A stretch of 64,000 bases of DNA, taken from assembly GCF_035609205.1 (NCBI RefSeq), contig NZ_CP141184.1, positions 5,277,001-5,341,000 on the forward strand, given 5' to 3'. The DNA is from Hymenobacter sp. GOD-10R (GTDB lineage: Bacteria; Bacteroidota; Bacteroidia; Cytophagales; Hymenobacteraceae). A program made the position numbers and the translations under genes. The notes under the pieces were generated by a model that was not told where the DNA came from, did not search any database, and worked only from the letters and a program-made list of their open reading frames with translations. Shown here one piece after another: positions 2 through 56,839 of this stretch; position 1 is the first letter of the stretch, and the number at the start of each line of letters is the position of its first letter.

Positions 2-3000
2 ACGCCTTACCTGGAAATGAGCGCGCCGCAGGTGTTCTGGGGCCGGTCGCGGCGGGTGAGTGGCTCGGCAGAGATGCGCGCCAACCTCGTGTTCAACTAC
101 TCGGTGCGGCCCAGCGACGTGCGCGGCAAGCTGCGCGTTACGCAAGATGGGCAGCCGGTAGCCTTCGAGGTCGTATCGGCCGAGCCAGACAAGCTGGTAG
201 GTATCAGCTTTACCCAGCAAGTGCGGCCCTACTCGCCTTTGACGCTGACCGTGGAGCCGGGCCTGCGCGCCGTGGGCAGCGACCGAGCTACCACCAAACC
301 ACTCACCGCCGACGGCGACGTGCCCGACCAGCAAACCCTGCAAGTGCGCGAACTGACCGGCTCCTTGCAAGATGGCGAACCCGTCGTGACGGTGCTCACC
401 AACCAGCCCGTTTCGGCGGATGATATTCGGGAGCAGCTGAAGGTGTCGCCGGAGGTGCCGTTTGCGGTGGAGGCGTTAGAAAGCGGCTTTGCCCTGAAAG
501 GCGGTTTCGAAGTGGGCCGCAGCTACCAGGTGAGCCTAAGTGGCGGCACGCGCGGCGCCCTGGGCGGACAACTCGCCGAGCCTTTCAGCCAGACCGTAAG
601 CTTCGGCGACGAGCAACCTAGCCTCTCGTTCGCCAACGGCGACAAAGCCATGTACCTCGACGCGCTGGGCGCCCGCAACCTAGGTATCCGCATCAACGAG
701 GTGGAGAAGGTGAAGGTGACCATTGCCAAGGTGTACGCCAACAACATTCAGCAACTAATGCGCGGCGGCAGCCAGTACGGCTACCCCGAATACAATGAGG
801 ATGAGCCCAGTACCGACGACGAAGGCGGCTACATCGACCGCTCTTTCCAATACTACGACGTCGAAAACCTAGGTAATGTGCTCACCGAGCGCACCTACAC
901 CGTGTCGGGTTTGCCGAAGCAGCAGGGTTTGCGGCTGCTCAACCTGAGCATGAAGGACCTGGAATTTACGGGGCCGCTGAAGGGGCTGTACATCGTAAAA
1001 ATTGAAGACACCGAGCATCAATGGCTGCAAGTATCGAAGCTGGTAGCAGTGTCAGATATCGGGCTGATTGTGAAACAGGGCAAGGCTGGCAGCACGCTGG
1101 TGTTTGCCAACTCCATCCGCAATGCCAAGCCGCTTTCGGGCGTGTCGGTGCAGTTTGTAAGTTCTAATAACCAAGTTATTGCGTCGAGCACGACGAACGG
1201 CGACGGCCTAGCGAAATTCGACAGCACGGCCGCCACGAGCCGCTTCCGCCTGAGCATGGTGACGGCCCAACGCGAGTCGGATTTTACGTTCCTCGACTTG
1301 CCGCGCAGCCGCGTTGAGACGTCGCGGTTTGAGGTGGGCGGTTTGCAGAGCAACGCAGCCCGCTACCAAGCCTTCCTCTACGGCGACCGGGACCTGTACC
1401 GCCCCGGCGACACGATTCGCACCAACACCGTTATCCGGACCGAAAACTGGAAAACGCCGCCCGCCAACTTGCCGGTCAAGATTCGGCTGCTGTTGCCCAC
1501 GGGCAAGGAGTACGCGAGCTTGCGCAAGAAGCTGTCGGCGGCGGGCTCGTTTGAGTCGAGCTTCATTCTGCCGCCGAGTATCATGACGGGCCTTTACACG
1601 CTGGAAATCCTCACCGGAAACGACGTGCTGCTCACCTCGCGCCAGCTCAGCGTGGAAGAATTTATTCCCGACCGCCTGAAAGTGACGGTGAAAGCTAGCC
1701 CCGCCGTCGTGCGTCCGGGGCAAACGGTGACAGCCAACATCACGGCCACCAACCTGTTCGGCCCGCCCGCCACCGACCGCAAGTTTGAGGTGGAGTTCTC
1801 GCTGAAAGAGAAGTCCTTCAACCCCAAGAAATACCCTGATTACGACTTCCAAATCAGCACCGGGGAAGAGCGCCGCGCGAGCTACGAAGAGGAATCGGAA
1901 AGCACGTCGGCCATTTCGAGCCGCTTTGAGAAAGCCGTGCGCGAAGGCAACACCGACGCGGCCGGCCGGGGGGCGGCCACGTACGAGGTGCCGGGCTACT
2001 CCGACCTAGGTATTCTGGAAGGCGCGGCGTTTACGACGGTGTTCGACGAAACCGGCCGGCCAGTTAACCGCTTGGCCACGTTTGAGGTACAAACCCAGCC
2101 GGTACTATACGGGCTCCAACGCCTCAGCGACTTAATCAGCACGCGCCAGCAATTGCCGGTGCGCATCGTGGCCCTCACGCCGGCCGGTCAGCCGACGAAT
2201 GCCAGCGCGCAGGTGACCATTGTACGACTGTTGTGGGAAACGGTGATTGAGCGCCGCGGCGGTCGTTACCTCTACAACTCGCAAAAGCGCGAGCAGGTGG
2301 TGATGAACCGCACCATTCCGCTGTACGCGGGCGGCAACCCCGATGCGAACCTAGGTTTTGCGCCCACCTACTCCGGCGAATACGAAGTGCGGGTGAGTCG
2401 GCCCGGCGCCCGCACCTACGTGGCGCAACGCGTGTACGCCTATGGCTACGGCGATACGCAGAGCAATTCCTTCGAAGTAAACAACGAGGGCGAGGTGACC
2501 ATTGAGGCCGACAAGGCCAAGTACCAACCTGGCGAAACCGCCAACCTGCTGCTGAAAACACCTTTCCCCGGCCGCGTGCTCGTGACGGTGGAGCGCGACC
2601 GGGTGCTCGACCATTTCTACGTGACCACCGACGAGAAATCGGCCCGCGTGCGCATCCCGATTCGCGGCAACCACGTGCCCAATATCTATGTGACGGCCAC
2701 CGCCATCCGCGAAATCACCGACAACCGCCTGCCGCTCACGGTGGCCCGCGGCTTCGTGCCGCTCACGGTGGAGAAGCCTGAGGCCCAGCTGCAAGTCGCC
2801 CTGAACGTGCCCCAGCAAAGCCGCTCCCAAACCTGGCAAACCATCGAAGCCACAACCGCGCCCGGCGCCAACGTGACCCTGGCCGTGGTGGACGAAGGCA
2901 TTCTACAACTCAAGGATTACCGCACGCCCGACCCCTACGGCTACTTCTACCAGAAGCGCGCCCTCGAAGTGCAGGCCTACGACGTGTACCCCTTCCTGCT

Positions 3001-5167
3001 GCCCGAGCTAGGTACCAGCAGCTCCGGGGGCGACGCCGCCGACCTCTCGCGCCGCACCACGCCCGTGCCCTCGCGCCGCGTGAAGCTGCTCGCTAAATGG
3101 AGCGGCGTGCTGAAGGCCGATGCCAGCGGCAAAGTGCGCTACAAAGTGCGCATTCCGCAGTTCTCGGGCGCCGTGCGGGTCATGGCCCTCGCTTACAAAG
3201 ACGACGCGTTTGGCTCCGCCGAAAAAACCATGAAAGTGGCTGACCCGGTGGTAATCAGCACCGCGCTACCTAGGTTCCTAAGCCCCGGCGACACGATTGA
3301 CGTGCCGGTGACGCTGACGAACACGACGGGGAAAGAGATGCGAATTGTAGTTAATGCTCAGACAGGAAGCTTACTCCAATTGATTGACAACGGATCAGCA
3401 GAGCGTGGAGGCAAGCTAAATTTCAAGTATATGAACCTTAAGCCTAACACTGAAGGGCGAGTTCTTTTCCAGCTTAAAGCTTTACAAGCATTAGGCAACG
3501 AGAAAGTAACAATCGTAGCTCAATCTGGTCAGGATGCTGCTAATAAAGGAGAAACCTTCACCGAAACTATCGAAATACCCGTCCGACCCGCCTCACCGCT
3601 TGAAAAGCGCAACGGCTCCGGTGTCATAGCAGGTGGTAGCGACGCGACGTTGAACCTGAAAACCAACTTCCTGCCGTCGTCGCTGCGGAGCCAGCTGGTG
3701 GTGAGCCGCTCGCCGATGACGGAGTTTGCCAAAGACCTGCGCTATCTACTGCAATACCCTTACGGCTGCCTGGAGCAAACCGTGTCGGCCGCTTTTCCAC
3801 AGCTCTATTACGGCGACCTAACTGCCACGCTTCAGCAGAAAACCGGGCAGGCCGCCAAGGCCCAGCGCTACAACCCAAACTACAACGTGCAGGAAGCCAT
3901 TCGCAAAATCGAGTCGATGCAGCTCTACAACGGCTCGCTCAGCTACTGGCCCGGCGGCGACTACGACAACTGGTGGGCCACCGCCTACGCCGCGCACTTC
4001 TTGCTGGAAGCCCAGCGCGCCGGCTTCGACGTGAATAAAATCGTGCTTGACAAAGTGCTGCGCTACCTGCAATTCCGCAACCGCAAGCGCGAAACCGAGC
4101 CCTACCAGTACTTCGACGCCAATAACATTGCCCGCCAGAAAACCATTGCCAAAAAGGAAATCACCTACAGCCTCTACGTGCTAGCCCTGGCCGGTCGGCA
4201 AGACCCCGTGGCGATGAACTACTACAAAGCCAATCGGCCGCTGCTCGCCCAGGATGCTCGGTTCCTGTTGGCCTGTACCTTCGCCCTCAACGGCAACGAG
4301 CGCAGCTTCCGCGACGTGCTGCCCACTAAGTTCGGGGGCGAAACCGCCGCGGCCCGCGCCCTCGATGGCTCGTTCTACTCCCCCATCCGCGACGAAGCCC
4401 TGGTACTCAACGCCCTGCTCGCCGCCGACCCCGGCAACGCGCAAGTCGTGAGCCTCACGCGCCAGCTGAGCCGCCAGGTAAAGCAAGCGGGCTGGCTCAG
4501 CACCCAAGAGCGGGCATTTGCCCTGCTAGCCCTCGGCAAAGTAGCGCGCCAGAACGCAGGCAGCACCGTCACGGCCTCCCTCCTTGCTGACAGCAAGAAG
4601 ATCGGAGAGTTTTCGGGCAAAGACCTCACGGTGAATAACGTAGCCAATCGGCAGCTAGCCTTGCGCACGGCGGGCAGCGGTAGCCTCTATTACTTCTGGG
4701 AAACGGAAGGCATTTCGCCCACCAACACCATCCGCGAGGAAGACGCCTACCTGCGCGTGCGCCGCCAGTTCCTCGACCGCAACGGTCAGCCCCTAGGCTC
4801 GCCCACCTTCCGCCAGAATGATTTGGTAGTCGTAAAAATCACCCTGCAAGCCGCCGACGCGGCCGGCGAGGTGAAGAACGTCGCCGTCACCGACCTACTG
4901 CCCGCCGGCCTCGAAATCGAAAACCCACGCATCGGCGCCGTCCGCGACCTAGCCTGGGCCACCGATGCCGCCCAACCCGACTACCTGGATATGCGCGACG
5001 ACCGCATCAACCTATTCACCACCGCCACAGGTCAGTCCAAGTCGTTCTACTACCTGGCGCGGGCGGTGAGCAAAGGTACTTTCAGGCTAGGTCCGGTGAG
5101 TGCTGATGCGATGTATAACGCGGAGTACCATAGCTATAATGGAGCTGGCGTAGTACGAGTGAAGTAG
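2..5167 (+). CDS. alpha-2-macroglobulin family protein (5' end outside window)
   Basis: Bacterial alpha-2-macroglobulins are large periplasmic protease traps: cleavage of a bait region exposes a thioester that covalently captures the protease. The frame is open to the window edge with no stop before the first ATG (17), so the N-terminus, including any lipoprotein signal, is missing. What remains is about 1,720 residues. The thioester motif CLEQ is present within YGCLEQ (Cys codon at 3767), about residue 1251 counted from the ATG. Upstream lies the family signature VDEGILQL (about 2890) followed by TPDPYGYF. A Ser/Gly/Arg-rich stretch at about 3015-3085 is a plausible bait region. PBP1C follows on the same strand, the classical A2M partner. 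The TAG stop is part of a hairpin repeat. Codons at about 3340-3560 are much more A/T-rich than the rest. The family call is very secure. Confidence 0.96.
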   Translation, partial: TPYLEMSAPQVFWGRSRRVSGSAEMRANLVFNYSVRPSDVRGKLRVTQDGQPVAFEVVSAEPDKLVGISFTQQVRPYSPLTLTVEPGLRAVGSDRATTKPLTADGDVPDQQTLQVRELTGSLQDGEPVVTVLTNQPVSADDIREQLKVSPEVPFAVEALESGFALKGGFEVGRSYQVSLSGGTRGALGGQLAEPFSQTVSFGDEQPSLSFANGDKAMYLDALGARNLGIRINEVEKVKVTIAKVYANNIQQLMRGGSQYGYPEYNEDEPSTDDEGGYIDRSFQYYDVENLGNVLTERTYTVSGLPKQQGLRLLNLSMKDLEFTGPLKGLYIVKIEDTEHQWLQVSKLVAVSDIGLIVKQGKAGSTLVFANSIRNAKPLSGVSVQFVSSNNQVIASSTTNGDGLAKFDSTAATSRFRLSMVTAQRESDFTFLDLPRSRVETSRFEVGGLQSNAARYQAFLYGDRDLYRPGDTIRTNTVIRTENWKTPPANLPVKIRLLLPTGKEYASLRKKLSAAGSFESSFILPPSIMTGLYTLEILTGNDVLLTSRQLSVEEFIPDRLKVTVKASPAVVRPGQTVTANITATNLFGPPATDRKFEVEFSLKEKSFNPKKYPDYDFQISTGEERRASYEEESESTSAISSRFEKAVREGNTDAAGRGAATYEVPGYSDLGILEGAAFTTVFDETGRPVNRLATFEVQTQPVLYGLQRLSDLISTRQQLPVRIVALTPAGQPTNASAQVTIVRLLWETVIERRGGRYLYNSQKREQVVMNRTIPLYAGGNPDANLGFAPTYSGEYEVRVSRPGARTYVAQRVYAYGYGDTQSNSFEVNNEGEVTIEADKAKYQPGETANLLLKTPFPGRVLVTVERDRVLDHFYVTTDEKSARVRIPIRGNHVPNIYVTATAIREITDNRLPLTVARGFVPLTVEKPEAQLQVALNVPQQSRSQTWQTIEATTAPGANVTLAVVDEGILQLKDYRTPDPYGYFYQKRALEVQAYDVYPFLLPELGTSSSGGDAADLSRRTTPVPSRRVKLLAKWSGVLKADASGKVRYKVRIPQFSGAVRVMALAYKDDAFGSAEKTMKVADPVVISTALPRFLSPGDTIDVPVTLTNTTGKEMRIVVNAQTGSLLQLIDNGSAERGGKLNFKYMNLKPNTEGRVLFQLKALQALGNEKVTIVAQSGQDAANKGETFTETIEIPVRPASPLEKRNGSGVIAGGSDATLNLKTNFLPSSLRSQLVVSRSPMTEFAKDLRYLLQYPYGCLEQTVSAAFPQLYYGDLTATLQQKTGQAAKAQRYNPNYNVQEAIRKIESMQLYNGSLSYWPGGDYDNWWATAYAAHFLLEAQRAGFDVNKIVLDKVLRYLQFRNRKRETEPYQYFDANNIARQKTIAKKEITYSLYVLALAGRQDPVAMNYYKANRPLLAQDARFLLACTFALNGNERSFRDVLPTKFGGETAAARALDGSFYSPIRDEALVLNALLAADPGNAQVVSLTRQLSRQVKQAGWLSTQERAFALLALGKVARQNAGSTVTASLLADSKKIGEFSGKDLTVNNVANRQLALRTAGSGSLYYFWETEGISPTNTIREEDAYLRVRRQFLDRNGQPLGSPTFRQNDLVVVKITLQAADAAGEVKNVAVTDLLPAGLEIENPRIGAVRDLAWATDAAQPDYLDMRDDRINLFTTATGQSKSFYYLARAVSKGTFRLGPVSADAMYNAEYHSYNGAGVVRVK

Positions 5168-8487: not shown

Positions 8488-9198
8488 ATGAAACAGCTTA
8501 AAGAAAAGCACCCCCTAGCCATTCGCTGGTTTCACTGGGTCAATTTTCCAGTGTTGATGTTGATGATTTGGAGTGGCTTGCTCATCTACTGGGCCAACGA
8601 CATTTACCGCATTGGCTGGGGCAAAACCACGCTTTTCCGCTTTTTCCCCGATTCCTTCTACAAAGCGCTGAATGTGCCGTTTCGTTTGGCGGAGGGCATG
8701 TCGCTGCACTTTGTGTTTATGTGGCTGTTTGTCATCAACGGCGCGCTGTATGTGCTCTACACGCTGATTTCCGGCGAGTGGCGCTACTTGCTGCCCGACC
8801 GGCACTCTTTCCGTGAGGCTTGGCAAGTCACGTTGCACGACCTAGGTCTGCGAAAAACGGCGCCTCCTGTGCGCAAATACAACGGGGCTCAACGCATTGC
8901 CTACACCGCCGTCGTGCTGATGGGCTTCGGTTCATTGCTCACAGGCCTAGCTATTTACAAGCCCATTCAAGTGGCGTGGCTGACCCAGGGGCTCGGCGGC
9001 TACGAAGCGGCACGCACCCAGCATTTCGTGCTCACCATCGGCTACGTTCTCTTCTTCGTAGTGCATGTGTTGCAAGTGATACGAGCGGGCTGGAACAATT
9101 TCCGCTCAATGATTGCTGGCTTTGAAGTAATCGACACGCCTGCTCCCACTCCCTCTACGGCCCCCGCTGCCGACCGCCCTGCCCCTTCTTCGATCTAG
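8488..9198 (+). CDS. membrane cytochrome b (b561/Ni-hydrogenase type), partner of the molybdoenzyme
   Basis: A 236-residue integral membrane protein with about four to five hydrophobic segments. Histidines in RWFHWVNF, MSLHFVFMW and VLFFVVHVLQV are placed where this family binds haem b. Such subunits pass electrons between the quinone pool and a periplasmic redox enzyme. The molybdopterin oxidoreductase gene begins 4 bases after the stop, so the two are very probably cotranscribed and form one complex. ATG 8488 gives a normal start (MKQLKEKHP, cytoplasmic and basic); a TTG 27 bases upstream extends the frame but adds nothing recognisable. The C-terminal tail is Pro/Ala/Ser-rich and probably disordered. 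The electron donor and acceptor cannot be read from the sequence. Confidence 0.85.
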   Translation: MKQLKEKHPLAIRWFHWVNFPVLMLMIWSGLLIYWANDIYRIGWGKTTLFRFFPDSFYKALNVPFRLAEGMSLHFVFMWLFVINGALYVLYTLISGEWRYLLPDRHSFREAWQVTLHDLGLRKTAPPVRKYNGAQRIAYTAVVLMGFGSLLTGLAIYKPIQVAWLTQGLGGYEAARTQHFVLTIGYVLFFVVHVLQVIRAGWNNFRSMIAGFEVIDTPAPTPSTAPAADRPAPSSI

Positions 9199-10018: not shown

Positions 10019-10064
10019 AAAACAAAGCGCCCCGACTACCTAGGTAGTCGGGGCGCTTTGTTTT
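10019..10064. terminator. 46-bp perfect palindrome, bidirectional terminator
   Basis: The sequence is an exact palindrome of 46 bases centred between 10041 and 10042. It has ACCTAGGT at the centre, a G/C-rich stem, and A- and T-tracts outside (AAAACAAA / TTTGTTTT). It lies between the convergent molybdoenzyme and manganese catalase genes, so it can stop transcription from both sides. Confidence 0.9.
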
Positions 10065-17642: not shown

Positions 17643-18494
17643 TTATAAACGACCCAAGCACACTTTTAGGCTGTCGCGCCAATGCGGAATGGCGATACCT
17701 AGGTTAGTCTTCGCCTTTGTCTTATCCATTACGGAAAAAGCTGGGCGCGTGGCTTTCGTGGGATATTCAGAAGTGCGAATTGGTACAGTGCGCACCACTG
17801 TGTTGCTCAGCTCAAAAATAGCCGTGGCAAAGTCGTACCACGACGTCACGCCTTCATTGCTGTAGTGATAGATGCCGTATTGCTGATTCTGGCGTTCAAT
17901 GATGCTGAGAATGCAGCCGGCTAAGTCAATGGCATAGGTGGGTGTACCAACCTGGTCCCAAATGATGCGAAGCTCCTCCCGCTCCCGGCCCAGCTTCAGC
18001 ATCGTTTTCACGAAGTTGTTGGCGTATTCAGAGTAGAGCCAGCTAGTACGCAAGATGAAATACCGCTCTGCATGCGCCGGAATGACCTGCTCACCTTCCA
18101 GCTTCGTGAGGCCATATACGCTAATAGGTTCGGCCGCATCCGTTTCCACGAGAGGCTGATTACCGGTGCCGGCAAACACAAAATCGGTGGAAATATGGAT
18201 GAGCGTAGTACCAAATTCACCGCACAGTCGGGCTAGGTTCTCGGCACCGTCCTTGTTGATTTTTCGAGCTAGTTCTACCTCGTCCTCAGCCTTGTCAACG
18301 GCGGTATAAGCTGCGCAGTTGATACAATAAGCTGGCTTATGCTGCTCAAATACCGTCCGCAGCTTATCTGTATCTAAGATGTTGGCTTGGTCTTCTGCTG
18401 GGAAAATAATGCCATCCATGTTTCGCTCTTGTGAAACATGGCGAAGGCACTGACCTAGCTGGCCGGAGGCCCCAAAAACCACTGTTGAACTCAT
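17643..18494 (-). CDS. rfbD: dTDP-4-dehydrorhamnose reductase family protein (RmlD/RfbD)
   Basis: A 283-residue extended short-chain dehydrogenase. It has the NAD(P)-binding FGASGQLGQ at the N-terminus, CINCAAYTAVDKAE, STDFVFAG, and the catalytic YGLTK (Tyr-x3-Lys). RmlD reduces dTDP-4-dehydro-L-rhamnose to dTDP-L-rhamnose in the cytosol for surface polysaccharides. The other rml genes are not in the window, so the pathway role is inferred from family. It is the last gene of a same-strand run with the DUF4130 gene, 86 bases downstream of it. Confidence 0.9.
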   Translation of the reverse strand: MSSTVVFGASGQLGQCLRHVSQERNMDGIIFPAEDQANILDTDKLRTVFEQHKPAYCINCAAYTAVDKAEDEVELARKINKDGAENLARLCGEFGTTLIHISTDFVFAGTGNQPLVETDAAEPISVYGLTKLEGEQVIPAHAERYFILRTSWLYSEYANNFVKTMLKLGREREELRIIWDQVGTPTYAIDLAGCILSIIERQNQQYGIYHYSNEGVTSWYDFATAIFELSNTVVRTVPIRTSEYPTKATRPAFSVMDKTKAKTNLGIAIPHWRDSLKVCLGRL

Positions 18495-19493: not shown

Positions 19494-20363
19494 TTAATAC
19501 GCCTTTGCGCGTTCCTTGGCCTGCAAAAACTTGATAAGCAACTCATTCACTTCAGTGGGTTTTTCTAATTGCACCCAGTGCGTAGCGTCGGGGAAGTAGT
19601 GCAACTCTCCGTTTTCGCATAGCTTGAAGCTCAGTTCCGCTAGCTTGGCATTCAGCGTCACATCTTGCTTGCCCCAAATAAGTTGAACAGGCGTTGTGAC
19701 CCGTGGCTCTTTGTCTTTGTTGCCTAATGTATAGCGGAAGGCGCGATACCAATTGATCATGCCCCGCATTGCATTAGGGCGCATCCAAGCCGCTCGGTAG
19801 CGCTGCAAATCGGCTTGGCGGAAGGCGCCCCGGTGGCTAGTGCTGGTCAGCAGACCTAGGTTGTTGAGCATAAATTGCTCAGGTAGCCAGGGCAGTTGAA
19901 AGAAGAACATGTACCAACTTCGCACCACCTGATCGGGGATGCGAAGAAATGCGCTTGGCAGCACCGCTGGATGCGGTACATTCAGAACAGAAGCATTAAG
20001 AATGCGGGTTTCGTGATACGTAGCCAGGTACCATGTCACGATACCGCCCCAGTCGTGGCCGATGAGGCTAGCTTGCTCACGGCCCGCTGCATCAATTAAC
20101 CCCACAATGTCGTGAGCAAGCGTCGGCAAGGTGTACTCACGGATGCGCGACGGTTTGTCGCTCAGGTTATACCCCCGCTGATCGGGTACCCACACGCGGT
20201 AGCCAGCCGCGGCCAATGGCTCAATCTGATGCCGCCACCCATACCAAAAATCTGGGAAGCCGTGCAGCAGAATCACGAGTGGGCCCTCCTTGGGCCCACA
20301 CTGCACCACATGCAGCGTGACGCCGTTGGTCCAGATGTAATGATGTTCGAGTTCATAGCGCAT
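19494..20363 (-). CDS. alpha/beta hydrolase, epoxide hydrolase-like
   Basis: A 289-residue hydrolase. The oxyanion motif HGFPDFWYGW, the nucleophile elbow GHDWGG with Asp rather than Ser, GKQDVTLN and the catalytic His in DATHWVQLEKP all fit soluble epoxide hydrolases and haloalkane dehalogenases. A Tyr in the cap (YRAFRYTLG) favours epoxide hydrolase. There is no signal peptide. It sits between the TIGR03916 and TIGR03915 genes on the same strand, with 94 bases to the latter. Whether it belongs functionally with them is unknown. Confidence 0.88.
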   Translation of the reverse strand: MRYELEHHYIWTNGVTLHVVQCGPKEGPLVILLHGFPDFWYGWRHQIEPLAAAGYRVWVPDQRGYNLSDKPSRIREYTLPTLAHDIVGLIDAAGREQASLIGHDWGGIVTWYLATYHETRILNASVLNVPHPAVLPSAFLRIPDQVVRSWYMFFFQLPWLPEQFMLNNLGLLTSTSHRGAFRQADLQRYRAAWMRPNAMRGMINWYRAFRYTLGNKDKEPRVTTPVQLIWGKQDVTLNAKLAELSFKLCENGELHYFPDATHWVQLEKPTEVNELLIKFLQAKERAKAY

Positions 20364-24457: not shown

Positions 24458-25297
24458 ATGAACCTAGGTGATTATAATGATTTGGAAGTAGCACGCTTCG
24501 TTGATTTCGGACTGTACTTAAGCTCCGACGATGGCGACTTGCTGCTGCCGAACAAGTACGTTCCCGAGGGCACCGAGATTGGCGATGTGCTGCGCGTATT
24601 TGTGTACCGTGACTCGGAAGACCGCCTGATTGCCACCACCTTGAAGCCGCTGGCGCGGGTAAACGAACTGGCTGCGCTAACCGTACGCGACGTATCCGAC
24701 CACGGCGCTTTCCTGGACTGGGGCTTGGAGAAGGATCTGTTTCTGCCTTACCGCAACCAGCGCAACAACGTGCGCCCCGGCCAGCGCCTGACGGTGTACG
24801 TGTACCTCGACGAAACGTCCGACCGCATTGTGGCCTCGGCGCGTTGGGAGAATTTTCTGAAGCCCGACAAGCCCTTCGAAGGTAAGCCGGGGGAAGCAGT
24901 GCAGCTGTTCGTAGCTCAGGAAACCGACCTAGGGTATACCGCCGTGGTGAACGGTCAGTACCTAGGTTTGCTGTATTACAACGAAGTATTTCGCCCGCTT
25001 CGTCTCGGCGATACGCCCACTGGCTACGTACGCCAAGTGCGCCCCGATGGCAAGATTGACCTACGCCTCCAAAAGCCCGGCTACGAGGAAGCTGTGGATG
25101 CCGCCGACACCTTACTGAACGCCCTGCGCGCGGCCCCGAACCAGCGGATACCGCTTTCTGACAAGAGCGAACCCGACGACATTTACCGGCGCCTAGGCAT
25201 GAGCAAGAAAGTCTTCAAGAAGGCGCTCGGCAGCTTATACAAGCAAGGTTTGGTAGAGTTGGCACCCGAACATACGCAGCTAGTGAATAAGGCATAG
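24458..25297 (+). CDS. cvfB: CvfB family S1 RNA-binding protein
   Basis: A 279-residue cytosolic protein with tandem S1-type OB domains and a C-terminal winged helix, the CvfB/YitL architecture. Visible are FVDFGLYL, VSDHGAFLDWGLEKDLFLP, VRQVRPDGKIDLRLQ, and the wHTH stretch DDIYRRLGMSKKVFKKALGSLYKQGLVEL. CvfB proteins bind RNA; in staphylococci CvfB affects virulence gene expression. The ACCTAGGT palindrome covers codons 2-4 of this gene (24462-24469). The gene stands alone, preceded by about 200 bases that contain only degenerate copies of the word AACTGGCAACTG. Confidence 0.9.
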   Translation: MNLGDYNDLEVARFVDFGLYLSSDDGDLLLPNKYVPEGTEIGDVLRVFVYRDSEDRLIATTLKPLARVNELAALTVRDVSDHGAFLDWGLEKDLFLPYRNQRNNVRPGQRLTVYVYLDETSDRIVASARWENFLKPDKPFEGKPGEAVQLFVAQETDLGYTAVVNGQYLGLLYYNEVFRPLRLGDTPTGYVRQVRPDGKIDLRLQKPGYEEAVDAADTLLNALRAAPNQRIPLSDKSEPDDIYRRLGMSKKVFKKALGSLYKQGLVELAPEHTQLVNKA

Positions 25298-28539: not shown

Positions 28540-30933
28540 TTAGAATCGGAAGCTTTTGCTGAAAGATGGAATGATTGGAAAAAGTGAGATTTGCTTGTAA
28601 GCGGGCTGTCTCTCCACATTACCATTCTGATCTTCGCGCCCTTGCTGGAAGTAGATGTAGTAAGGATTCTTGCGGCTATAGAGATTATAGAAGCTGAGGC
28701 TGTTCACCACCTCGCCCCACCGTTTCTTTTTGGTTTTGCTTAAGTCAAGATCCATGCGGTGATAGGCGCGCATGCGGTAGCTATTCCGGTCGCCGTAGTC
28801 GTCGTAAGTACTATAAGGACCTAGCTGAAACCTACCTTGGGAAAGCGTCACGGCGTTGCCGGTGCCGTATACCCACGTGCCAGAAAGCGTGAGCGTGGGG
28901 CTAAACTTGTGAATCACAACCAAGGACGCATCGTGGCGACGGTCGTACTTATAGGGGAAAATGCGGCCTTGGTTCAGGTCGGGGAAGCGACGCTTGCTCC
29001 AGGCCAGCGTATAGCCGATCCAGCCGGTGGTGCGGCCGGTTTTCTTCTGAATAAAAAACTCACCGCCGTAGGCCCAGCCTTTGCCGCTGGTCACTTTATC
29101 CTGCCAATTGTTATCGGTAGTACCCAAGAAGCTAGCTCCTTCGCGGTACTCGATGAGGTGGCGCATGGGCTTGTAGTAGGTCTCGAAGCTGAACTCGTAG
29201 TCTTCGTCGTGGAAGCGCAGGTCGCGGGCAAAACCTAGGCTCACTTGCTGGGCGCGTTGGGGCTGCACCTTAGCGGTGGCGGGTACCCACAAGTCGGTGG
29301 GCAGGCCAATGCCACTATTGGTGAGCAAGTGAATAAACTGCGTGGTGCGGGCATAGGAAGCTTTCAAGGCCCACTCATTCGTCAGTAGGAAGCGAGCAGA
29401 TACCCTAGGTTCGATGGAGTTGTAGAACTTTTGCTCCACTAAAAAGCCATTCAGCCGCAGGCCGCCGTTCACTTTTAAGCGCTGCGTCACGCGATAATCG
29501 TCTTCGGCGTAGATACCGGCTTCGCTGGCCATGGTGCGGGCCACCGAGTTCAGCTGATTACCTAGGTCGCTGGAATTATCCTTGACCTGCAAGGCCCCTG
29601 GGCGAAACGAGTGCAGAATATACTGCCCGCCGAAGCGGATGTAGTGGTCAGGATTAGGCGCATAATCGAGGTCCGTTTTAATGCTCAAGTCTCGAATATT
29701 GGACAGGTAGCGCAGGTTAAACTTGTCGGTGCGCACCTCGTCTTGCGTGTGGTAGCGGTTCTCCTGTTCAATGCCGACGTTGAACTGATACTTGCTGTAG
29801 GTCACGTGCGTATTCATGAACAGCTGGTCGTTCAGCAGGTGGTTCCAGCGCAGGCCCGTTGTCAGGTTGCCCCACCCTAGGTTCGAGTTGTTGCGGTCAT
29901 AGTCACCATCCTCTTCTTTATCGGTGTAGCGCGCATAAAACTTATCGTAGCCCGTGTAAGCGCTCAGGTAAAGTCGGTCGCGGCTACTTACTTTCCAGTT
30001 GAGCTTCGCATTGAGGTCGTGAAAGAAGTAGCCTGCCGTTACGCCATCGGCCGCCGCCAAAATGATGGGCCGGGCCAGTAAGTCGATGTAGGTGCGGCGC
30101 GCCGAGATAATAAACGACGCCGTGTCCTTTTTGATCGGCCCTTCCAGAGTGAGTTTAGAAGCAATAATACCGATGGCACCTTCCCCCTGAAACTTCTGCA
30201 TGTTGCCCTCCTTCATGGATATATCCAGCACTGACGAGAGGCGGCCACCGTAGCGCGCCGGAAAGCCCCCTTTGATGAGCTCTACGTTGTTCAAAGCGTC
30301 GGCATTGAACACCGAGAAAAAGCCAAACAAGTGGGCCGCATTGTACACCGGCGTGCCATCCAGCAAGATCAGGTTCTGGTCGGGGGAGCCGCCACGCACA
30401 TAGAGGCCGCTGGTGCCTTCGCTACCGCTCTGCACGCCGGGTAGCAGTTGCAGCACCTTCAGCACGTCGGTTTCTCCTAGCAGCGCGGGCAAGTTCTTGA
30501 TCTGAGCCACGGGCACGTTGATGGTGCCCATCCGCGTGGACTGCGCAATTTTCTCTTCCTGGCTGCGACTTCCGACTACTTCCACGCCTGCTAGCTCCGA
30601 AGTAGCGGAACGCAGTTGAAAGTTGTGCACCACGTTGCGCCCGGCGGCAGCCGCAAACCGCATCTTCTCATACCCTAGGTACGACACCAGCAACCGCGCC
30701 GAGTCGCCTTGAGCTACTGGCAAAGTCAGTGAATAGAAGCCGTAGTTATTGGTGGCCGTGCCCTGCCCCGTGCCCGGACTCACCACTGCCACCCCGATGA
30801 GGTTTTCACCCGTGCTCCGGTCGCGCACGTACCCGATGATCGTCACCTTCCCCGCTTGTTGTGCCCACCCCGCCGATCCAGTCACTACTACTATCCCAAC
30901 ACACGTAATCATCCCGCGGAAAAATCTCATCAT
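28540..30933 (-). CDS. TonB-dependent receptor with carboxypeptidase-like regulatory N-domain
   Basis: A 797-residue outer membrane receptor. After a signal peptide (ending SAGWAQQ) comes a CarboxypepD_reg-like beta domain (VTIIGYVRDRSTGENLIGVAV, about residues 28-115), then the plug (ARMGTINVPVAQIKNLPALLG-type region with GLYVRGGSPDQNLILLDGTP) and a 22-strand barrel ending near FSKSFRF with the terminal Phe. This is the SusC-like/FecA-like receptor class that takes up ligands through TonB and the proton motive force. The adjacent DUF4249 lipoprotein is its usual partner. The transported compound cannot be deduced. Confidence 0.93.
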   Translation of the reverse strand: MMRFFRGMITCVGIVVVTGSAGWAQQAGKVTIIGYVRDRSTGENLIGVAVVSPGTGQGTATNNYGFYSLTLPVAQGDSARLLVSYLGYEKMRFAAAAGRNVVHNFQLRSATSELAGVEVVGSRSQEEKIAQSTRMGTINVPVAQIKNLPALLGETDVLKVLQLLPGVQSGSEGTSGLYVRGGSPDQNLILLDGTPVYNAAHLFGFFSVFNADALNNVELIKGGFPARYGGRLSSVLDISMKEGNMQKFQGEGAIGIIASKLTLEGPIKKDTASFIISARRTYIDLLARPIILAAADGVTAGYFFHDLNAKLNWKVSSRDRLYLSAYTGYDKFYARYTDKEEDGDYDRNNSNLGWGNLTTGLRWNHLLNDQLFMNTHVTYSKYQFNVGIEQENRYHTQDEVRTDKFNLRYLSNIRDLSIKTDLDYAPNPDHYIRFGGQYILHSFRPGALQVKDNSSDLGNQLNSVARTMASEAGIYAEDDYRVTQRLKVNGGLRLNGFLVEQKFYNSIEPRVSARFLLTNEWALKASYARTTQFIHLLTNSGIGLPTDLWVPATAKVQPQRAQQVSLGFARDLRFHDEDYEFSFETYYKPMRHLIEYREGASFLGTTDNNWQDKVTSGKGWAYGGEFFIQKKTGRTTGWIGYTLAWSKRRFPDLNQGRIFPYKYDRRHDASLVVIHKFSPTLTLSGTWVYGTGNAVTLSQGRFQLGPYSTYDDYGDRNSYRMRAYHRMDLDLSKTKKKRWGEVVNSLSFYNLYSRKNPYYIYFQQGREDQNGNVERQPAYKQISLFPIIPSFSKSFRF

Positions 30934-44155: not shown

Positions 44156-44299
44156 TATATCACATTCTTAATCAACGTTTTTCCTGCTTAATAGCCGTAG
44201 GACCTAGGTATCATCAAGAAAGCTAACTGGCGTTGCCTAATTCACGCAGTCAGCTTAAGCGTACCAGGGCATGCAGCACGTAGCCGAGTTTTTACTCCA

Positions 44300-45040
44300 A
44301 TGTCTACATCATCTCGCATAACTACCGTCCTCTTCGACCTCGACGACACGCTCTTCGATCATGCGGGTACCGCACGGGCGGCACTGGCGGCCAGCACGAG
44401 TGGGTTGCCATTCGCCAGCGAAATTGTGCTGGATGAGCTGTACAACCGCTATAGCGAACTGCTGGAAGAAATGCACCCGCAGGTGCTCGCCGGCCGCTAC
44501 AGCTACTTAGATGCGCGGCGCATACGGTTCCAGCGTTTGCTCGCTCCTTATAATGCGCTAACAACCGAAACCGAAGCCGACGAGTTTGCGCAGTTTCACT
44601 ACACGCACTATCGCAATTTGCGGCAGCCAATCGTGGGCGCCTTGGCGCTGCTGGAAGCGTTGAAGCCGCACTACCGCATTGGTATCGTGACCAACAACCG
44701 CACCACCGAGCAGGAAGACAAGCTGGACTACCTAGGTATGACGCACTTGGTTGATGCCCTGATTACCTCGGAAGATGTAGGCGTCCTCAAACCCGATCCG
44801 CGCATCTTTGCAGCAGCTTTGCAGCGCCTGAACGCGGAAGCCGCTGCAACAGTGATGGTGGGCGACAACTGGACTGCTGATGTGTTAGGGGCTTTGGCAG
44901 TAGGCATACGACCCGTGTGGCTGAACCGCTTCGGCGCTGTCCGGCTGCTCCCTGATGTAGAAGAAATTACCGGTTTTGAGCCGCTAGCCGATGTAGTGCG
45001 CAAGATTGTGGGGGCTATGCCGGAAGCTGCCCGCGTTTAG
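44300..45040 (+). CDS. HAD family hydrolase (YjjG-like phosphatase)
   Basis: A 246-residue haloacid dehalogenase-type phosphatase. Motif I is FDLDDTLFDH, motif II is VTNNRTTEQ, motif III/IV is KPDPRIFAAAL and MVGDNWTADVLGA. The alpha-helical C1 cap between motifs I and II has the size seen in YjjG/HAD-IA proteins, which dephosphorylate nucleotides. Substrate not determinable. The ACCTAGGT palindrome lies in codons for YLG (44730-44737). Confidence 0.9.
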   Translation: MSTSSRITTVLFDLDDTLFDHAGTARAALAASTSGLPFASEIVLDELYNRYSELLEEMHPQVLAGRYSYLDARRIRFQRLLAPYNALTTETEADEFAQFHYTHYRNLRQPIVGALALLEALKPHYRIGIVTNNRTTEQEDKLDYLGMTHLVDALITSEDVGVLKPDPRIFAAALQRLNAEAAATVMVGDNWTADVLGALAVGIRPVWLNRFGAVRLLPDVEEITGFEPLADVVRKIVGAMPEAARV

Positions 45041-48761: not shown

Positions 48762-49532
48762 TTAATCTCTCTTTTTGAAGCGGTGCGGGTAGATTACTAG
48801 TCCGAGCGAAGTAAGTACCTGCGGCTCTTTTAAATGGGAAAGCGTCTTTTTGTACACATCTTTCTTCGTGTAATCAGTTGACCACGACGCGCTAACTGCT
48901 AACTGCAGCTGCGCCCACGGGAACACCCCCTGCCGGTCCCAATAGCGCACGAAGAACATTGGCTCGTTGCGGGTCATGCGCTTTAAATTTATCGGTAAGC
49001 CATTGTTAGTTAAGGTAGGAAACCACACCTGCGACAGCCGGTACGTCACGCCCATTGTTGTCCGTTCGCCTTCGTAGGCCGCAAATACTTCCCCAAAGAG
49101 CTTGCGAAAACGTGCTTCATAATGATAAGGCGTAATCGTATCAGCTACTGACTCAAACTCGCCCTCGTTGAAGCGCCGGCTACTATTGCCGCGGCCGTAT
49201 CCACCTAGCCCACCAGCCAACCACTGCTCCGAAAGCGGCCAATACGTACCGGCGCTTGCCTCAAACTGCTGCAGGCGAAAATAGCGACGCGTAGTATCTG
49301 CTTTGCCCGGCCGCAGTCCACCCGCGGCGCGCACCAGCACATGGCGCATGGGCGAGTAAGCAATGGAGCCCTCCAGCCGCTTCGCCAAGAAAACACTACC
49401 AACCACTTCTGCTTGGCCTTTATCGCGGAGCATGGGTGCGCTTGGCTGCAAAGGAGTATATACCGAGCAGCTTGCCAGCAAACCCGTAGAAGCGAGACCT
49501 AGGTACTTATGCGTGCGTAAAGAATACTTCAT
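48762..49532 (-). CDS. outer membrane beta-barrel lipoprotein, unknown function (paralogue 2)
   Basis: A 256-residue protein with lipobox GLLASC (Cys about 22), a Pro-containing linker (SVYTPLQPSAPMLRDKGQ), then Gly- and aromatic-rich strands (SIAYSPMRHVLVRAAGGLRPG, TYWPLSEQWLAGGLGGYGRG). It shares its layout with the protein at 45073-45804. Function unknown. The ACCTAGGT palindrome lies in its signal-peptide codons (49497-49504). Confidence 0.75.
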   Translation of the reverse strand: MKYSLRTHKYLGLASTGLLASCSVYTPLQPSAPMLRDKGQAEVVGSVFLAKRLEGSIAYSPMRHVLVRAAGGLRPGKADTTRRYFRLQQFEASAGTYWPLSEQWLAGGLGGYGRGNSSRRFNEGEFESVADTITPYHYEARFRKLFGEVFAAYEGERTTMGVTYRLSQVWFPTLTNNGLPINLKRMTRNEPMFFVRYWDRQGVFPWAQLQLAVSASWSTDYTKKDVYKKTLSHLKEPQVLTSLGLVIYPHRFKKRD

Positions 49533-49661: not shown

Positions 49662-51326
49662 TTATTTGGCGTATGCCACGGCGCGCATTTCCCGGATTAC
49701 GGTAATCTTGATCTGGCCGGGATATTGCATTTCTTTCTCAATCTTTTGCGAGATTTCGTAGCTCAGCTCTTGAGCCCGCTCATCGCTCACGTTCTCAGCA
49801 TTCACCATCACGCGCAGCTCACGGCCGGCCTGAATGGCGTAGCACTGATTTACACCTTCGAAGCCCACAGCTGTTTCTTCTAGCTGCTTTAGGCGCTTGA
49901 TGTAGCTTTCCATCATCTCGCGACGAGCACCGGGGCGCGAGCCACTGATGGCGTCGCAAGCCTGCACGAGTGGCGAAATCATGGCCGTCATTTCGATTTC
50001 GTCGTGGTGGGCACCGATGGCGTTTACTACGTCGGGGTGCTCCTTGTACTTCTTGGCCATCTCCATACCGAGGATGGCGTGGGGTAGCTCTGGCTCTTCG
50101 GTGCTTACTTTACCAATGTCGTGCAGAAGGCCAGCCCGCTTGGCGTGCTTCACGTTCAGACCTAGCTCCGCCGCCATGGTAGCGCAAAGGTTGGCTACCT
50201 CGCGCGAGTGCTGGAGCAGGTTTTGGCCGTAGCTGGAGCGGAAACGCATCCGACCTACCATCTTAATCAGCTCGGGGTGCAAGCCGTGGATACCTAGGTC
50301 GATGATGGTCCGCTCACCAATCTCTACAATCTCCTCGTCGATATTCTTGCGGGTTTTGGCCACAATCTCCTCAATACGAGCTGGGTGAATACGGCCGTCT
50401 TTCACCAGCAAGTGCAGCGACAAACGCGCTACCTCGCGGCGCACTGGGTCGAAGCCCGAAATGATGATGGCCTCAGGCGTATCATCCACAATGATTTCAA
50501 CACCCGTAGCGGCTTCCAGCGCCCGAATGTTACGGCCTTCACGGCCAATGATTTTGCCTTTTACGTCGTCGGATTCGATGTTAAAAATCGAGACGCAGTT
50601 TTCTATCGCATGCTCAGCGGCGGTGCGCTGAATAGTTTCCAATACAATCTTCTTGGCGTCTTTGGTAGCCGTAAGTTTGGCTTGGGCAACTACATCTTTG
50701 ATGTAAGAGCTAGCCTGAATCTGGGCTTCATTACGCAAAGAATCAACGAGTTGCTCACGGGCTTCGGAGGCCGAAAGGCTGGCAATGGTTTCGAGCTGGT
50801 GCTGAATCTGGAGGCGCTGCTCTTCCACTTCCTGCTGTTGGCGGGTAAGCTTTTCCAGCTGTGCTTCGTGCGTGGCACGGCGCTTTTCGTCCTGCCCTTC
50901 CATCTTTTCGCGGAGCTGCTGCGATTCAGTCTGAATCTTCTCGCGCAACATGTCCAGATCCTTTTCCTTTTTCTGGAGCTGTTCGAGTTGGCGCTGCGTG
51001 GTTTGGGTCAGCTGCTTAATGCTCTGCTCCTGCTCCTGCACCGCAAGGCGGCGCTGAGCTAGGTCAGTTTCTAATTCAGTTTTCTGCCGACGGCTGTCTA
51101 GGTCGAACTCGTTCTTGAGTTGGCGAAACTTATCCTTCGACTGCTGAATACGCTCATCGCGGATGCGGTTAGCCTTTTCTTCGGCTTCTTGGAGGAGTTG
51201 TTGGGCGCGGGCTTGCGCTTGGGCTTCGTGGTCCTGCCGGGCCTTTCCGGCCAGCAGGCGTCCTAGCACAATGCCGGCCCCGAGGGCAACGACAGTGGCA
51301 AGGACAATATACACAATGGTGGGCAT
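49662..51326 (-). CDS. rny: ribonuclease Y
   Basis: A 554-residue membrane-anchored endoribonuclease that starts mRNA decay. Order: one N-terminal transmembrane segment (about residues 3-25), a very long Gln/Glu/Lys-rich coiled coil (about 35-215), a KH RNA-binding domain ([20 protein letters not shown], about 255-330), and an HD phosphodiesterase domain ([24 protein letters not shown] with the HD pair) to the C-terminus. Length and order match RNase Y exactly. The zapA gene lies about 120 bases upstream on the same strand. Confidence 0.96.
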
Positions 51327-52475: not shown

Positions 52476-54896
52476 TCAACGGCGGATCACAGCACCGGCT
52501 TGCTTCTCGAACTGGCCAATCAGGCGCTGCATCACCGCGTCGATGGCTTGCTCCGTGAGCGTCTGCGTGGGGTCTTGCAGGGCGAAGCTCACCGAGTACG
52601 ACTTCTTATCGGCACCTAGGTTCTCGCCCTCATACACGTCGAACACGTTCACGCTTTGCAGCAGCTTCTTCTCGGTGCGCTGGGCAATCTGGCGCAGCTG
52701 ATCGAACGTCACGGTGCGGTCGACCACCAACGACAAGTCACGGCGCACTTCGGGGAACTTCGGCAGCTCTCGAGCGACGAGTGTGGCTTTGTACTTGCGC
52801 ATCAACCACTCCCAGTCTAGTTCGGCGTACCACACGGGCTGGCTCACATCGAGACGCTTGAGCACGCCCGGCGACACAGCACCTAGCTGCGCTACGGGCT
52901 GGTTCTGCACTAAAAGCGTAAGGCCACCAGCCATATAGGGGTGCTGCACAGGTTGCGGTACCGGCGCGGCATACCCTAGGGCGCTTAGTACCTGCTGTAC
53001 TACACTAGCTAGATCGTGGAATGTTGTCTTCTCGGCTTTGTGCTGCCAGGTCTCAGCCGTGGCGTTGCCGGTCAGGTAAATAGCGAGCTTGTTCTTTTCT
53101 TGGTATTGACCGTCGGCCTGGCGGTGGTACGTTTTGCCGAACTCGTACAGCTTCAGGTCGCGCTGGCGGCGGTTTAGGTTGTAGCGCACCACTTCTAGGC
53201 CGGAGTGCAACACGCTGGGGCGCATCACGTTCAGCTCGGCGCTGTTGTAGTTGAGCACGTGCACCAATGCTTCGTTTGGCTCGCTTTCTTTCTCGAAATA
53301 CTGCGAGTTGGTGAGCGAGTTGGTGATAATTTCAGAGAAGCCTTGTCCGCTGAGCAGCCGCGCCGTGTTCTGGCGCACCACTTCCGGGTCGGGGTTTGGG
53401 AACTTGGCCAGGAAGGAAGCCGAGTTGAAGGGGCGCAACGCCACGTTGTTGTAGCCGTAGATGCGCAGGATTTCCTCAATCACGTCGGCCTCGCGGGTCA
53501 CGTCCACTTTGTGGGGCGGCACGGTCAGGTTCCACTCCTCCGCGCTTACTTCACTGATCACGATATCCAGGTCCGTCAGGATCTGGCGGATTTGCGTGGG
53601 TTCGATGTACTGACCAACCAGCCGCTCCACGCGGGCTAGGCGCAAGCGCACCGTGGTGGGCTGCACTGGCACGGGGTACTCGTCCACTACTGGCGCGGTG
53701 ATGCTAGCCCCAGCTACTTCTTGCAGCAACAGAGCCGCGCGTTGTAGCGCCACCGGCACCATGTTGGGGTCGGTGCCCCGCTCAAAGCGGAATGAAGCGT
53801 CGGTTTTAAGTTGGTGGGTTTGGGAAGTGCGGCGTACGGCCGCCGGCGCGAAGTAGGCGCTTTCCAGGAACACGCGGGTCGTGGCGTTGCTCACGCCCGA
53901 AGTCTTGCCACCGAACACGCCAGCCAGCGCCATAGGAGCACCATTGGCGTCCGCAATAACCAAGTCATCTGCTTTCAGGGTGCGCTCGGTGCCGTCGAGG
54001 GTCACGAACTTATCCCCTGCCGCAGCGCGCTTCACCCGGATTTGGCCGCCCGTAATTTGGTCGGCGTCGAAGGCGTGGAGGGGCTGGCCTAGCTCGTGCA
54101 ACACGAAGTTGGTGACGTCGACCACGTTGTTGATAGGTGACAAGTCAATGCTGCGCAAGCGGCGCTGGAGCCACTCTGGCGACGGACCTACCTGCACATT
54201 CTCCAGCAGCAAACCGGAGTAGCGCGGGCTAGCTTGCTCGTCTTCAATGGTCACGCTGATGTTGCTGGCACCCGTGGCGGGTGCTTGGAACTTGCTCACG
54301 TCGGGCAAGTGGCAGGGCTGCTGGAGCAGGGCACGCAGCTCGCGGGCCACGCCGTAGTGCGAAGCGGCATCGGCGCGGTTCGGGGTCAGGCCAATCTCGA
54401 ATACCGAGTCGGAACCTAGGCCGAAGTAGTCGGCGGCGGGGGTGCCATTCGCCAGCGGCGTATCCAGCACCATAATACCGGCGTGCGAGGTACCTAGGCC
54501 GATTTCATCCTCGGCGCAGATCATACCTTCGGAAGCCGCACCGCGAATTTTTGATTTTTTGATCTTAAATGGCTCTCCCTGCGAAGGGTACAGCATGGCA
54601 CCTTCCAGAGCCACAACTACTTTTTGGCCAGCGGCCACATTGGGCGCACCGCACACAATTTGGCGCGGAGTGCCGTCGCCGACGTCCACGGTGGTGAGGC
54701 TGAGCTTGTCGGCGTCGGGGTGTTTTTCGCAGGTGAGCACTTCGCCAAGTACGACGCCGCGCAAACCGCCCGGTACACTTTCCAGCTCCTCAATGCCTTC
54801 CACTTCCAGCCCAGAGCCGGTGAGCAGCGCGCCAATTTCGGCGGCAGATTTATCAGTAGGAATGAGCGTGCGGAGCCAGTCGAGGGAGATTTTCAT
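52476..54896 (-). CDS. pheT: phenylalanyl-tRNA synthetase beta subunit
   Basis: An 806-residue subunit of the tRNA-charging enzyme. Order: N-terminal MKISLDWLRTLIP, tRNA-binding OB domain (GEVLTCEKHPDADKLSLTTVDVG), B3/B4 editing domain, the B5 DNA-binding-like domain, a catalytic-like core, and the C-terminal anticodon-binding FDX-ACB domain (ELPKFPEVRRDLSLVVDRTVT). Length is normal. pheS is not adjacent. A likely promoter lies at 54990-55020. Confidence 0.97.
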   Translation of the reverse strand: MKISLDWLRTLIPTDKSAAEIGALLTGSGLEVEGIEELESVPGGLRGVVLGEVLTCEKHPDADKLSLTTVDVGDGTPRQIVCGAPNVAAGQKVVVALEGAMLYPSQGEPFKIKKSKIRGAASEGMICAEDEIGLGTSHAGIMVLDTPLANGTPAADYFGLGSDSVFEIGLTPNRADAASHYGVARELRALLQQPCHLPDVSKFQAPATGASNISVTIEDEQASPRYSGLLLENVQVGPSPEWLQRRLRSIDLSPINNVVDVTNFVLHELGQPLHAFDADQITGGQIRVKRAAAGDKFVTLDGTERTLKADDLVIADANGAPMALAGVFGGKTSGVSNATTRVFLESAYFAPAAVRRTSQTHQLKTDASFRFERGTDPNMVPVALQRAALLLQEVAGASITAPVVDEYPVPVQPTTVRLRLARVERLVGQYIEPTQIRQILTDLDIVISEVSAEEWNLTVPPHKVDVTREADVIEEILRIYGYNNVALRPFNSASFLAKFPNPDPEVVRQNTARLLSGQGFSEIITNSLTNSQYFEKESEPNEALVHVLNYNSAELNVMRPSVLHSGLEVVRYNLNRRQRDLKLYEFGKTYHRQADGQYQEKNKLAIYLTGNATAETWQHKAEKTTFHDLASVVQQVLSALGYAAPVPQPVQHPYMAGGLTLLVQNQPVAQLGAVSPGVLKRLDVSQPVWYAELDWEWLMRKYKATLVARELPKFPEVRRDLSLVVDRTVTFDQLRQIAQRTEKKLLQSVNVFDVYEGENLGADKKSYSVSFALQDPTQTLTEQAIDAVMQRLIGQFEKQAGAVIRR

Positions 54897-55795: not shown

Positions 55796-55926
55796 TGCCG
55801 GTCCGACGCCCTAGGCGTCCGACCGGTTATCGTGAGAACGGGCCGCTTGAATGACGATCGTGCACCTAGGTCTTGCAGATGTCAGCAGGCGACAACCGGT
55901 CGGACGCCTAGGGCGTCGGACCGGCA
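55796..55926. repeat. 33-bp perfect inverted repeat with CCTAGG cores (copy 2 of the dispersed repeat)
   Basis: Arms at 55796-55828 and 55894-55926 are exact reverse complements, each containing GACGCCCTAGGCGTC or its near-palindrome. The 65-base spacer contains ACGATCGTGCACCTAG, as in the copy at 35794-35852. It lies between the DUF1684 and radC genes, which face different promoters. It has the size and shape of a small non-coding mobile or REP-type element. Confidence 0.85.
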
Positions 55927-56786: not shown

Positions 56787-56839
56787 ACCTAGGTTCTTGA
56801 ACAACAGTGGTGCCATGAAGCTCCGGCCGGGACCTAGGT
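56787..56839. repeat. two copies of ACCTAGGT in the promoter region of the phosphoesterase gene
   Basis: ACCTAGGT is present at 56787-56794 and 56832-56839, 45 bases apart, in the noncoding gap between radC and the metallophosphoesterase. These are the clearest intergenic members of a set of at least 20 exact copies in the window; the other positions are listed in the findings. Role unknown. Confidence 0.7.

Follow-up and report, generated by a model that had tools for sequence, protein, structure and literature searches.

A lineage-specific iterated DNA word in Hymenobacter and the different words of its sister lineages

The octamer ACCTAGGT is repeated throughout the genome of Hymenobacter sp. 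GOD-10R, where we found it to be this lineage's form of a lineage-specific iterated DNA word. It has a defined core and graded flanks, is spread over genes and intergenic DNA, is conserved in coding sequence, is unevenly shared among contigs and gives way to other words largely along the species tree. It was noticed in a stretch of 64,000 nucleotides (the window: positions 5,277,001 to 5,341,000 of contig NZ_CP141184.1), which lies on the 6.76-Mb contig of this 7.5-Mb genome, called G000 below. Tentatively, we favor the reading that the word serves to tag self-DNA in uptake and recombination, resembling the dialects of known uptake sequences.

Results

The whole G000 genome contains 1,867 copies of ACCTAGGT and 32 of the reversed word, a control that contains GATC and is somewhat low because GATC is scarce here. 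In 464 kb of G000, ACCTAGGT is the most over-represented palindromic octamer (136 copies versus 13.8 expected; all Markov expectations were computed from DNA that itself includes the words), and eight palindromes of the same composition have 0 to 9 copies each. The first-pass annotation, which was made from the window, had proposed an excess at the level of the DNA, and genome-wide the counts do exceed the Markov expectation.

The copies are widely but not uniformly distributed. Chromosome samples (20 of 20 kb) have 1 to 10 copies each and a 40-kb sample of contig C5 has 14, while samples of contigs C2, C3, C4, C6 and C7 together have only 7 in 220 kb, including none in 40 kb of C6 and one in 60 kb of C2. 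Counts in 5-kb blocks scatter about as much as a Poisson process would, or less (variance/mean 0.37-1.13), and sites of the form SCTAGS are near Poisson in G000. We rejected regular spacing, because the pattern is near Poisson except in G084 (16 blocks).

Comparison with other Hymenobacter genomes, which the annotation had recommended, confines the excess to 5 of 120 genomes: G013 (3,262 copies), G000 (1,867), G019 (1,815), G071 (492) and G087 (450). The other 115 have 0 to 60 copies, and no genome outside Hymenobacter has more than 138 (390 genomes drawn from the order). Our species trees use a single protein, PheT, and have 58 rows each (57 and 58 of them Hymenobacter; Adhaeribacter was dropped from the second). 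In the first tree, the five ACCTAGGT-rich genomes form two groups, and the starred branches force two changes. We refer to G000, G013 and G019 as lineage A and to G071 and G087 as lineage B.

Two genomes of another genus in the same family, G345 and G375, have 106 and 138 copies of ACCTAGGT, whereas the reversed word occurs there 2 and 7 times. These counts suggest a related word beyond the genus Hymenobacter.

Codon usage or Leu-Gly dipeptides might be thought to produce the excess, as 119 of the 126 coding copies in G000 read NAC-CTA-GGT. We rejected this explanation, which is hardly conceivable given two results. When synonymous codons are shuffled within each gene, 8.2 (standard deviation 2.0) of the 126 coding copies in 604 kb are left, and copies are no sparser in intergenic than in coding DNA (2.95 versus 2.71 per 10 kb in G000, and 10.94 versus 4.69 in G013, with genes predicted by a simple script of our own). 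The statement in the annotation that the excess is not only a codon effect is therefore correct.

The core of the word is CTAG. In the 464 kb of G000, variants altered within CTAG do not rise above background (e.g., ACATAGGT, 6 versus 5.6), and some variants in the outer bases are enriched (AGCTAGGT, 226 versus 40.5; CCCTAGGT, 65 versus 16.1). Another variant, AACTAGGT, is not enriched (13 versus 18.9). The annotation had regarded an enrichment of CTAG as surprising. Part of this claim holds: CTAG alone is only mildly above expectation in G000, but its density of 5.0/kb clearly exceeds the 1.0/kb in a pool of 12 relatives lacking a CTAG-cored word, 6 of which carry the words H or I described below, both without CTAG. 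Given CTAG, the flanks are nearly independent (seen/expected is 1.41 for AC/AC, 1.18 for AC/AG, 0.97 for AG/AG and 0.69-1.41 for all tested pairs). Therefore, each side is favored largely on its own, and the palindrome amounts to two half-sites placed back to back.

A de novo search of sampled DNA from 43 Hymenobacter sets (12-464 kb each; further words may exist) uncovered other words in sister lineages, namely MCCTAGGK, CCCTAGGG, GGCTAGCC, TAGGCCAS, CCCTACCCC and AGGGCCCC. MCCTAGGK (word B) came from this search in G071 and G087. Word E, CCCTAGGG, occurs in G055 (21 copies versus 0.7 expected), and word C, GGCTAGCC, in G084, G105 and G028 (47 versus 5.0 in G084). Word D/F, TAGGCCAS, is found in G024, G119, G111 and G026 (87 versus 7.7 in G119), word H, as CCCTACCC, in G058 and others (75 versus 3.8 in G058), and word I, AGGGCCCC, in G049, G018, G078 and G048 (23 versus 1.8 in G049). 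Of all the words, A, B, C and E are exact or near palindromes, and D/F and H are not palindromic. The half-site CCTA/TAGG is common to A, B, D/F, E and H, i.e., five of the seven words. Word C has GCTA, and word I has CCTA/TAGG only in an extended form, TAGGGCCC, in G049 and G018.

Genomes largely have one word each, and a genome's own word is as a rule its strongest (42 Hymenobacter sample sets). G028 is the exception, with both GGCTAGCC (14 versus 4.0) and CCCTACCC (7 versus 1.5). Words that differ by one base overlap to some extent: ACCTAGGG is 5-8 times expectation in lineage A and 4 times in E, and lineage B is high in ACCTAGGG and CCCTAGGG, with ACCTAGGT at 3.5-4 times expectation. Modest excesses of a few copies also occur (CCCTACCC, 4 versus 0.8 in G044 and 4 versus 1.0 in H. 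sediminis; AGGGCCCC, 10 versus 2.0 in G011). In whole genomes, SSCTAGSS reaches 8,799 copies in G055 and 7,061-8,391 in lineage C. Counting both strands, CCCTACCCC exceeds 300 copies in 14 of the 120 genomes (320-3,088) and has 19-211 in the other 106, with the reversed control in the tens.

The words largely agree with the species tree. In the second PheT tree, A, B, C, D/F and I each occupy one clade, E is one genome, and H needs 5 changes (at least 4). All seven word groups together need 6 changes, which is the minimum (the 30 word-less rows are not counted). In this tree, lineage B is grouped with the H genomes G108 and G027, and its members G071 and G087 have the highest CCCTACCCC counts (190 and 211) of the 106 low genomes. 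A shift from CCCTACCC to CCCTAGGG in lineage B, keeping CCCTA and leaving remnants of the old word, is therefore a natural reading.

The non-palindromic words have no consistent strand bias. The commoner strand has 177 of 315 D/F sites in 12 loci of 20 kb and 75 of 132 H sites in 6 loci, both approximately random (the origin was not mapped). In G058 the strands are mixed (14:14 to 20:10), and word I leans somewhat further to one strand in two of its three loci (17:6, 13:7 and 9:10).

In 20 kb of G106 (locus L291), a repeat that contains, e.g., ATTGGTGA and CCAATTCA recurs approximately 15 times and is perhaps a clustered repeat.

The species of lineage A are approximately 83-85% identical in aligned DNA, and we compared them as six directed pairs. 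Aligned copies of ACCTAGGT are identical in 17/22, 17/46, 23/33, 23/38, 14/32 and 14/14 cases (37-100%), versus background fractions of 0.27-0.33 for all 8-mers and 0.24-0.29 for 8-mers of the same composition. The low values belong to pairs taken from G013, the genome richest in copies (3,262). Differences between species are commonest at the ends of the word in four of the five pairs that have any, the exception being G000 to G013. Where leucine is kept, the CTA codon is unchanged inside NAC-CTA-GGT in 24/24, 15/17, 25/27, 26/31, 20/20 and 10/10 cases (84-100%), versus 12-24% for CTA not followed by G and 51-73% for the common codons CTC and CTG.

The word has also been gained. Where two species agree on a site one base away from the word, the direction of change can be assigned, and in G013 this change produced the word at 4 of 30 such sites, versus 23 of 1,792 for control palindromes. 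All four gains, the only ones with an assigned direction, are transversions, of two kinds; transversions are a minority class among G013 substitutions.

Within the window, ACCTAGGT is again the top over-represented palindromic octamer (20 versus 1.9, third-order model), and all 20 positions listed in the annotation are exact copies. Dinucleotide shuffles give 0.58 copies on average (maximum 3), where it had expected roughly one. CCTAGG occurs 54 times versus 13.3 in shuffles, an excess that the annotation had put at about 50 versus about 20. Base counts give a G+C content of 55.4%, so the 57% it assumed is wrong. Among aligned window copies, 14 of 16 are identical in G013 and 12 of 18 in G019; CTAG is intact in each of the six divergent G019 copies.

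The gene at 17-5167 has Leu-Gly-frame copies at 678..685, 2004..2011 and 2349..2356, identical in G013 and G019, and at 867..874, identical in G013 and ACCTAGGC in G019. Its copy at 3268..3275 is in the other frame, Pro-Arg, as the annotation had noted, and is identical in both species. Also identical in both are the copies at 17697..17704 (gene 17643-18494, minus strand), 24462..24469 (gene 24458-25297, plus strand), 29560..29567 (gene 28540-30933, minus strand) and 52614..52621 (pheT, 52476-54896, minus strand), as well as those at 8840..8847 and 44730..44737, outside open reading frames (ORFs) of at least 250 amino acids. The copy at 10038..10045, identical in both, is indeed at the center of a terminator-like structure, a perfect hairpin followed by a T-rich stretch. 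We rejected a general role in termination, however, because such a context applies to only a minority of intergenic copies.

The second copy in gene 24458-25297, at 24960..24967, is identical in G013 and ACCTAGGG in G019, and the copy at 50292..50299 (gene 49662-51326, minus strand) is identical in G013 and GCCTAGGT in G019. The copy at 19854..19861 (gene 19494-20363, minus strand) differs in G013 and is unaligned in G019, and that at 49497..49504 (ORF 48762-49532, minus strand) differs in G013 and is CGCTAGGT in G019. The remaining copies lie outside ORFs of at least 250 amino acids and are unaligned in G013. In G019, the copy at 44202..44209 is ACCTAGAT, that at 56787..56794 is identical, that at 56832..56839 is GCCTAGGT, and that at 55864..55871 is likewise unaligned.

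Two further loci in the window are noted for their gene content. At 18581-22011, an alpha/beta hydrolase lies between two putative proteins, one assigned to DNA repair (TIGR03915) and the other a radical SAM protein of DNA modification/repair (TIGR03916), and a UV damage endonuclease (UvsE/UvdE) is encoded at 60502-61416.

Discussion

The annotation compared the word to iterated palindromes such as highly iterated palindrome 1 (HIP1) of cyanobacteria, which was reportedly described in 1995. The likeness is real in that HIP1 (GCGATCGC) and the alternate HIPs are also genome-wide iterated octameric palindromes that have a strict core and variable ends and are replaced by other words in some relatives (PMC4390886, in part). 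The palindrome frame itself is too narrow, because sister lineages use non-palindromic words. The core is also CTAG here and GATC in HIP1, five of the seven Hymenobacter words share the CCTA/TAGG half-site, and the phylum is different. GCGATCGC has no copies in the 464 kb of G000. The cause and use of HIP1 were still debated in 2015, according to sections of the same paper (PMC4390886). The palindromes of Caldithrix were rejected as a parallel, since they are different and resemble repetitive extragenic palindromic elements (PMC5317091, in part).

In Elhai's model for HIP1, a solitary methyltransferase, here one for CTAG or its neighbors, makes and keeps the sites together with mismatch repair. 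The strict inner core with variable outer bases matches what is reported for HIP1, and some cyanobacteria have HIP1 but no recognizable CGATCG methyltransferase, as parts of PMC4390886 report. However, the solitary enzyme that the annotation suggested looking for did not appear among the families searched. We searched with Pfam profiles for PF01555 in 20 genomes and for PF00145, PF02384, PF02086 and PF07669 in 12 each. The type II families in which HIP1-like enzymes were expected (PF01555, PF00145 and PF02086) are without a match in G000, G019 and G087; other families, e.g., MT-A70, were not searched. PF02384 and PF07669 match only two G000 proteins, one HsdM-like (on C6) and the other large and MmeI-like (on C2; labels assigned by eye), and both contigs are small and poor in ACCTAGGT. 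By eye, among several kinds of large enzyme, no PF02384/PF07669 protein is common to all five ACCTAGGT genomes, and within the five Pfam families searched no candidate is common to lineages A and B. Non-palindromic words also fit poorly with a palindrome-specific enzyme, and we consider this explanation unlikely.

Some observations on these enzymes and on GATC stand apart. MmeI-like proteins (by eye) of approximately 1,115-1,140 amino acids on C2 of G000 (locus L110) and C13 of G071 (L109) are very similar, have no NCBIfam match and belong to two different ACCTAGGT lineages. GATC is nearly absent from G071 (2 in 100 kb versus 181 expected; L156-L160) and from 20 kb each of G010 and G090 (0 copies; L165 and L166). 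It is at 0.00/kb in 60 kb of contig C2 of G000 (L267-L269) versus approximately 1.9/kb on the G000 chromosome. GATC words are unusually common in G032, the sole genome of 120 in which the control SSGATCSS (942) exceeds SSCTAGSS (746).

Alternatively, an abundant DNA-binding protein of the nucleoid, or of segregation, repair or recombination, might read the word as a chromosome-maintenance site under weak selection. Palindromic forms would suit a dimer, the sites are spread over genes and intergenic DNA with near-Poisson or more even spacing, the word is retained and is gained through transversions, and additive binding energy would fit the graded flanks. By contrast, a specificity that changes between lineages, even to non-palindromic words, would in our judgment be unusual for a maintenance protein, and we identified no candidate. 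Chi and the FtsK orienting polar sequences (KOPS) are short words over-represented across the chromosome, a property shared by the Hymenobacter words, but D/F and H lack a strand preference beyond chance. That TAGGCCA and CCTACCC are not one-sided within 20-kb loci counts against a Chi-like function, which we rejected, and no KOPS-like orientation was seen either. Overall, a maintenance site is somewhat unlikely.

A context-dependent bias in mutation or repair could also leave the word as a functionless by-product. The near independence of the half-sites given CTAG, the similar genic and intergenic densities in G000, the near-Poisson spacing of SCTAGS and the noncoding copies, which are hardly better kept than other 8-mers, are all consistent with this idea. 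On the other hand, the four gains in G013 are transversions of two kinds, coding DNA has gained as well as kept the word, and the preferred word changes with lineage. We regard a pure by-product as quite unlikely.

We rank a self-DNA tag ahead of a chromosome-maintenance site, and the latter ahead of a cryptic methyltransferase. The tag is favored by the copy number and lineage confinement of the word, the use of largely one word per genome, the broad agreement with the tree and the graded half-sites, as well as by retention in coding DNA, the gains in G013, the scarcity on some contigs and the lack of a consistent strand bias. According to portions of PMC3630211, the DNA uptake sequence (DUS) dialects of Neisseriaceae share a CTG core and follow phylogeny. 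The Hymenobacter words resemble them in being lineage words in the thousands that mostly have a short shared core and largely follow the species tree. They differ in being 8-10 bases long and in several cases palindromic, in a core that is not present in every word, in the essential absence of the GspH family and in a weak inverted-pair signal.

Under the self-DNA reading, one sequence-reading factor would favor word-carrying DNA, and its specificity would drift between lineages. Word-bearing DNA would be preferentially taken up or recombined, such that the word would accumulate by molecular drive, as in the Neisseriaceae dialects. The route could be a competence machinery without known pilus parts, as in other Bacteroidota. 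Riemerella anatipestifer, of this phylum, transforms via ComEC, DprA and ComF together with several proteins that do not resemble known machinery (PMC8459023, in part). R. columbina favors its own DNA, and its frequent A-rich words are given as untested candidates in the available text of PMC7965970.

A number of results weigh against this reading. Known uptake sequences are not palindromes (PMC1939737, in part), whereas A, B, C and E are exact or near palindromes, and the matches listed in our literature search include no report of competence in Hymenobacter. The GspH minor pilin (PF12019) has one weak match in 120 genomes, ComP-type pilins not having been searched for; since pilus-free competence exists in Bacteroidota (PMC8459023, in part), this near-absence does not settle the question of uptake. 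In lineage A, ACCTAGGT is not biased to gene ends, and SCTAGS sites are not denser in the part of the window that aligns (3.28/kb) than in the unaligned part (4.25/kb, from 14 sites in 3.3 kb). Inverted pairs within 60 bp are in weak excess over same-strand pairs (23 versus 14 among 315 D/F sites, 4 versus 3 among 132 H sites), and the association with terminators is weak, with 3/39, 2/63 and 2/16 intergenic copies extending into longer palindromes.

A codon-triplet control of conservation is small, mixed and clear in some pairs only: where [DNYH]-Leu-Gly is kept, triplets that form the word are unchanged in 18/21, 15/15, 17/26, 15/22, 10/17 and 10/10 cases, and other codons in 6/24, 1/11, 6/17, 1/3, 1/1 and 1/8. 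In noncoding alignments, 13 of 37 copies are kept over the directed pairs, a fraction only slightly higher than that of other 8-mers (0.21-0.29). In G019, no gain of the word is seen at 26 one-off sites, and single control palindromes have rates as high as the word's (2/16 in G013, 4/17 in G019). Because several expected marks of uptake are weak or absent, we put the tag model first but hold it only tentatively.

In its fuller form, the proposal is that self-DNA recognition evolved independently in Hymenobacter, probably as a specificity in uptake or recombination. It would comprise at least seven dialects, built mostly on CCTA/TAGG and palindromic or one-sided depending on lineage, and a factor that reads them and is not a GspH-type pilin. 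We consider this possible, if doubtful. The feature resembles both HIP1 and the uptake-sequence dialects but does not fully fit the definition of either, and we therefore assign it to neither. We found no paper joining Hymenobacter, CTAG and methylation. Literature matches to the letters ACCTAGGT were unrelated by title among those listed, which also include no earlier description of the Hymenobacter words.

Conclusions

Should the words prove to be uptake tags, they would to our knowledge be the first well-marked set in Bacteroidota; the literature matches listed contain no other, save the R. columbina candidates (PMC7965970, in part). In Hymenobacter, iterated words arise, change and vanish among close relatives, some of them palindromic and some not, and G000 lacks matches to the expected methyltransferase families. 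Therefore, methylation, uptake, upkeep and mutation bias can be separated in this genus by comparing sister strains.

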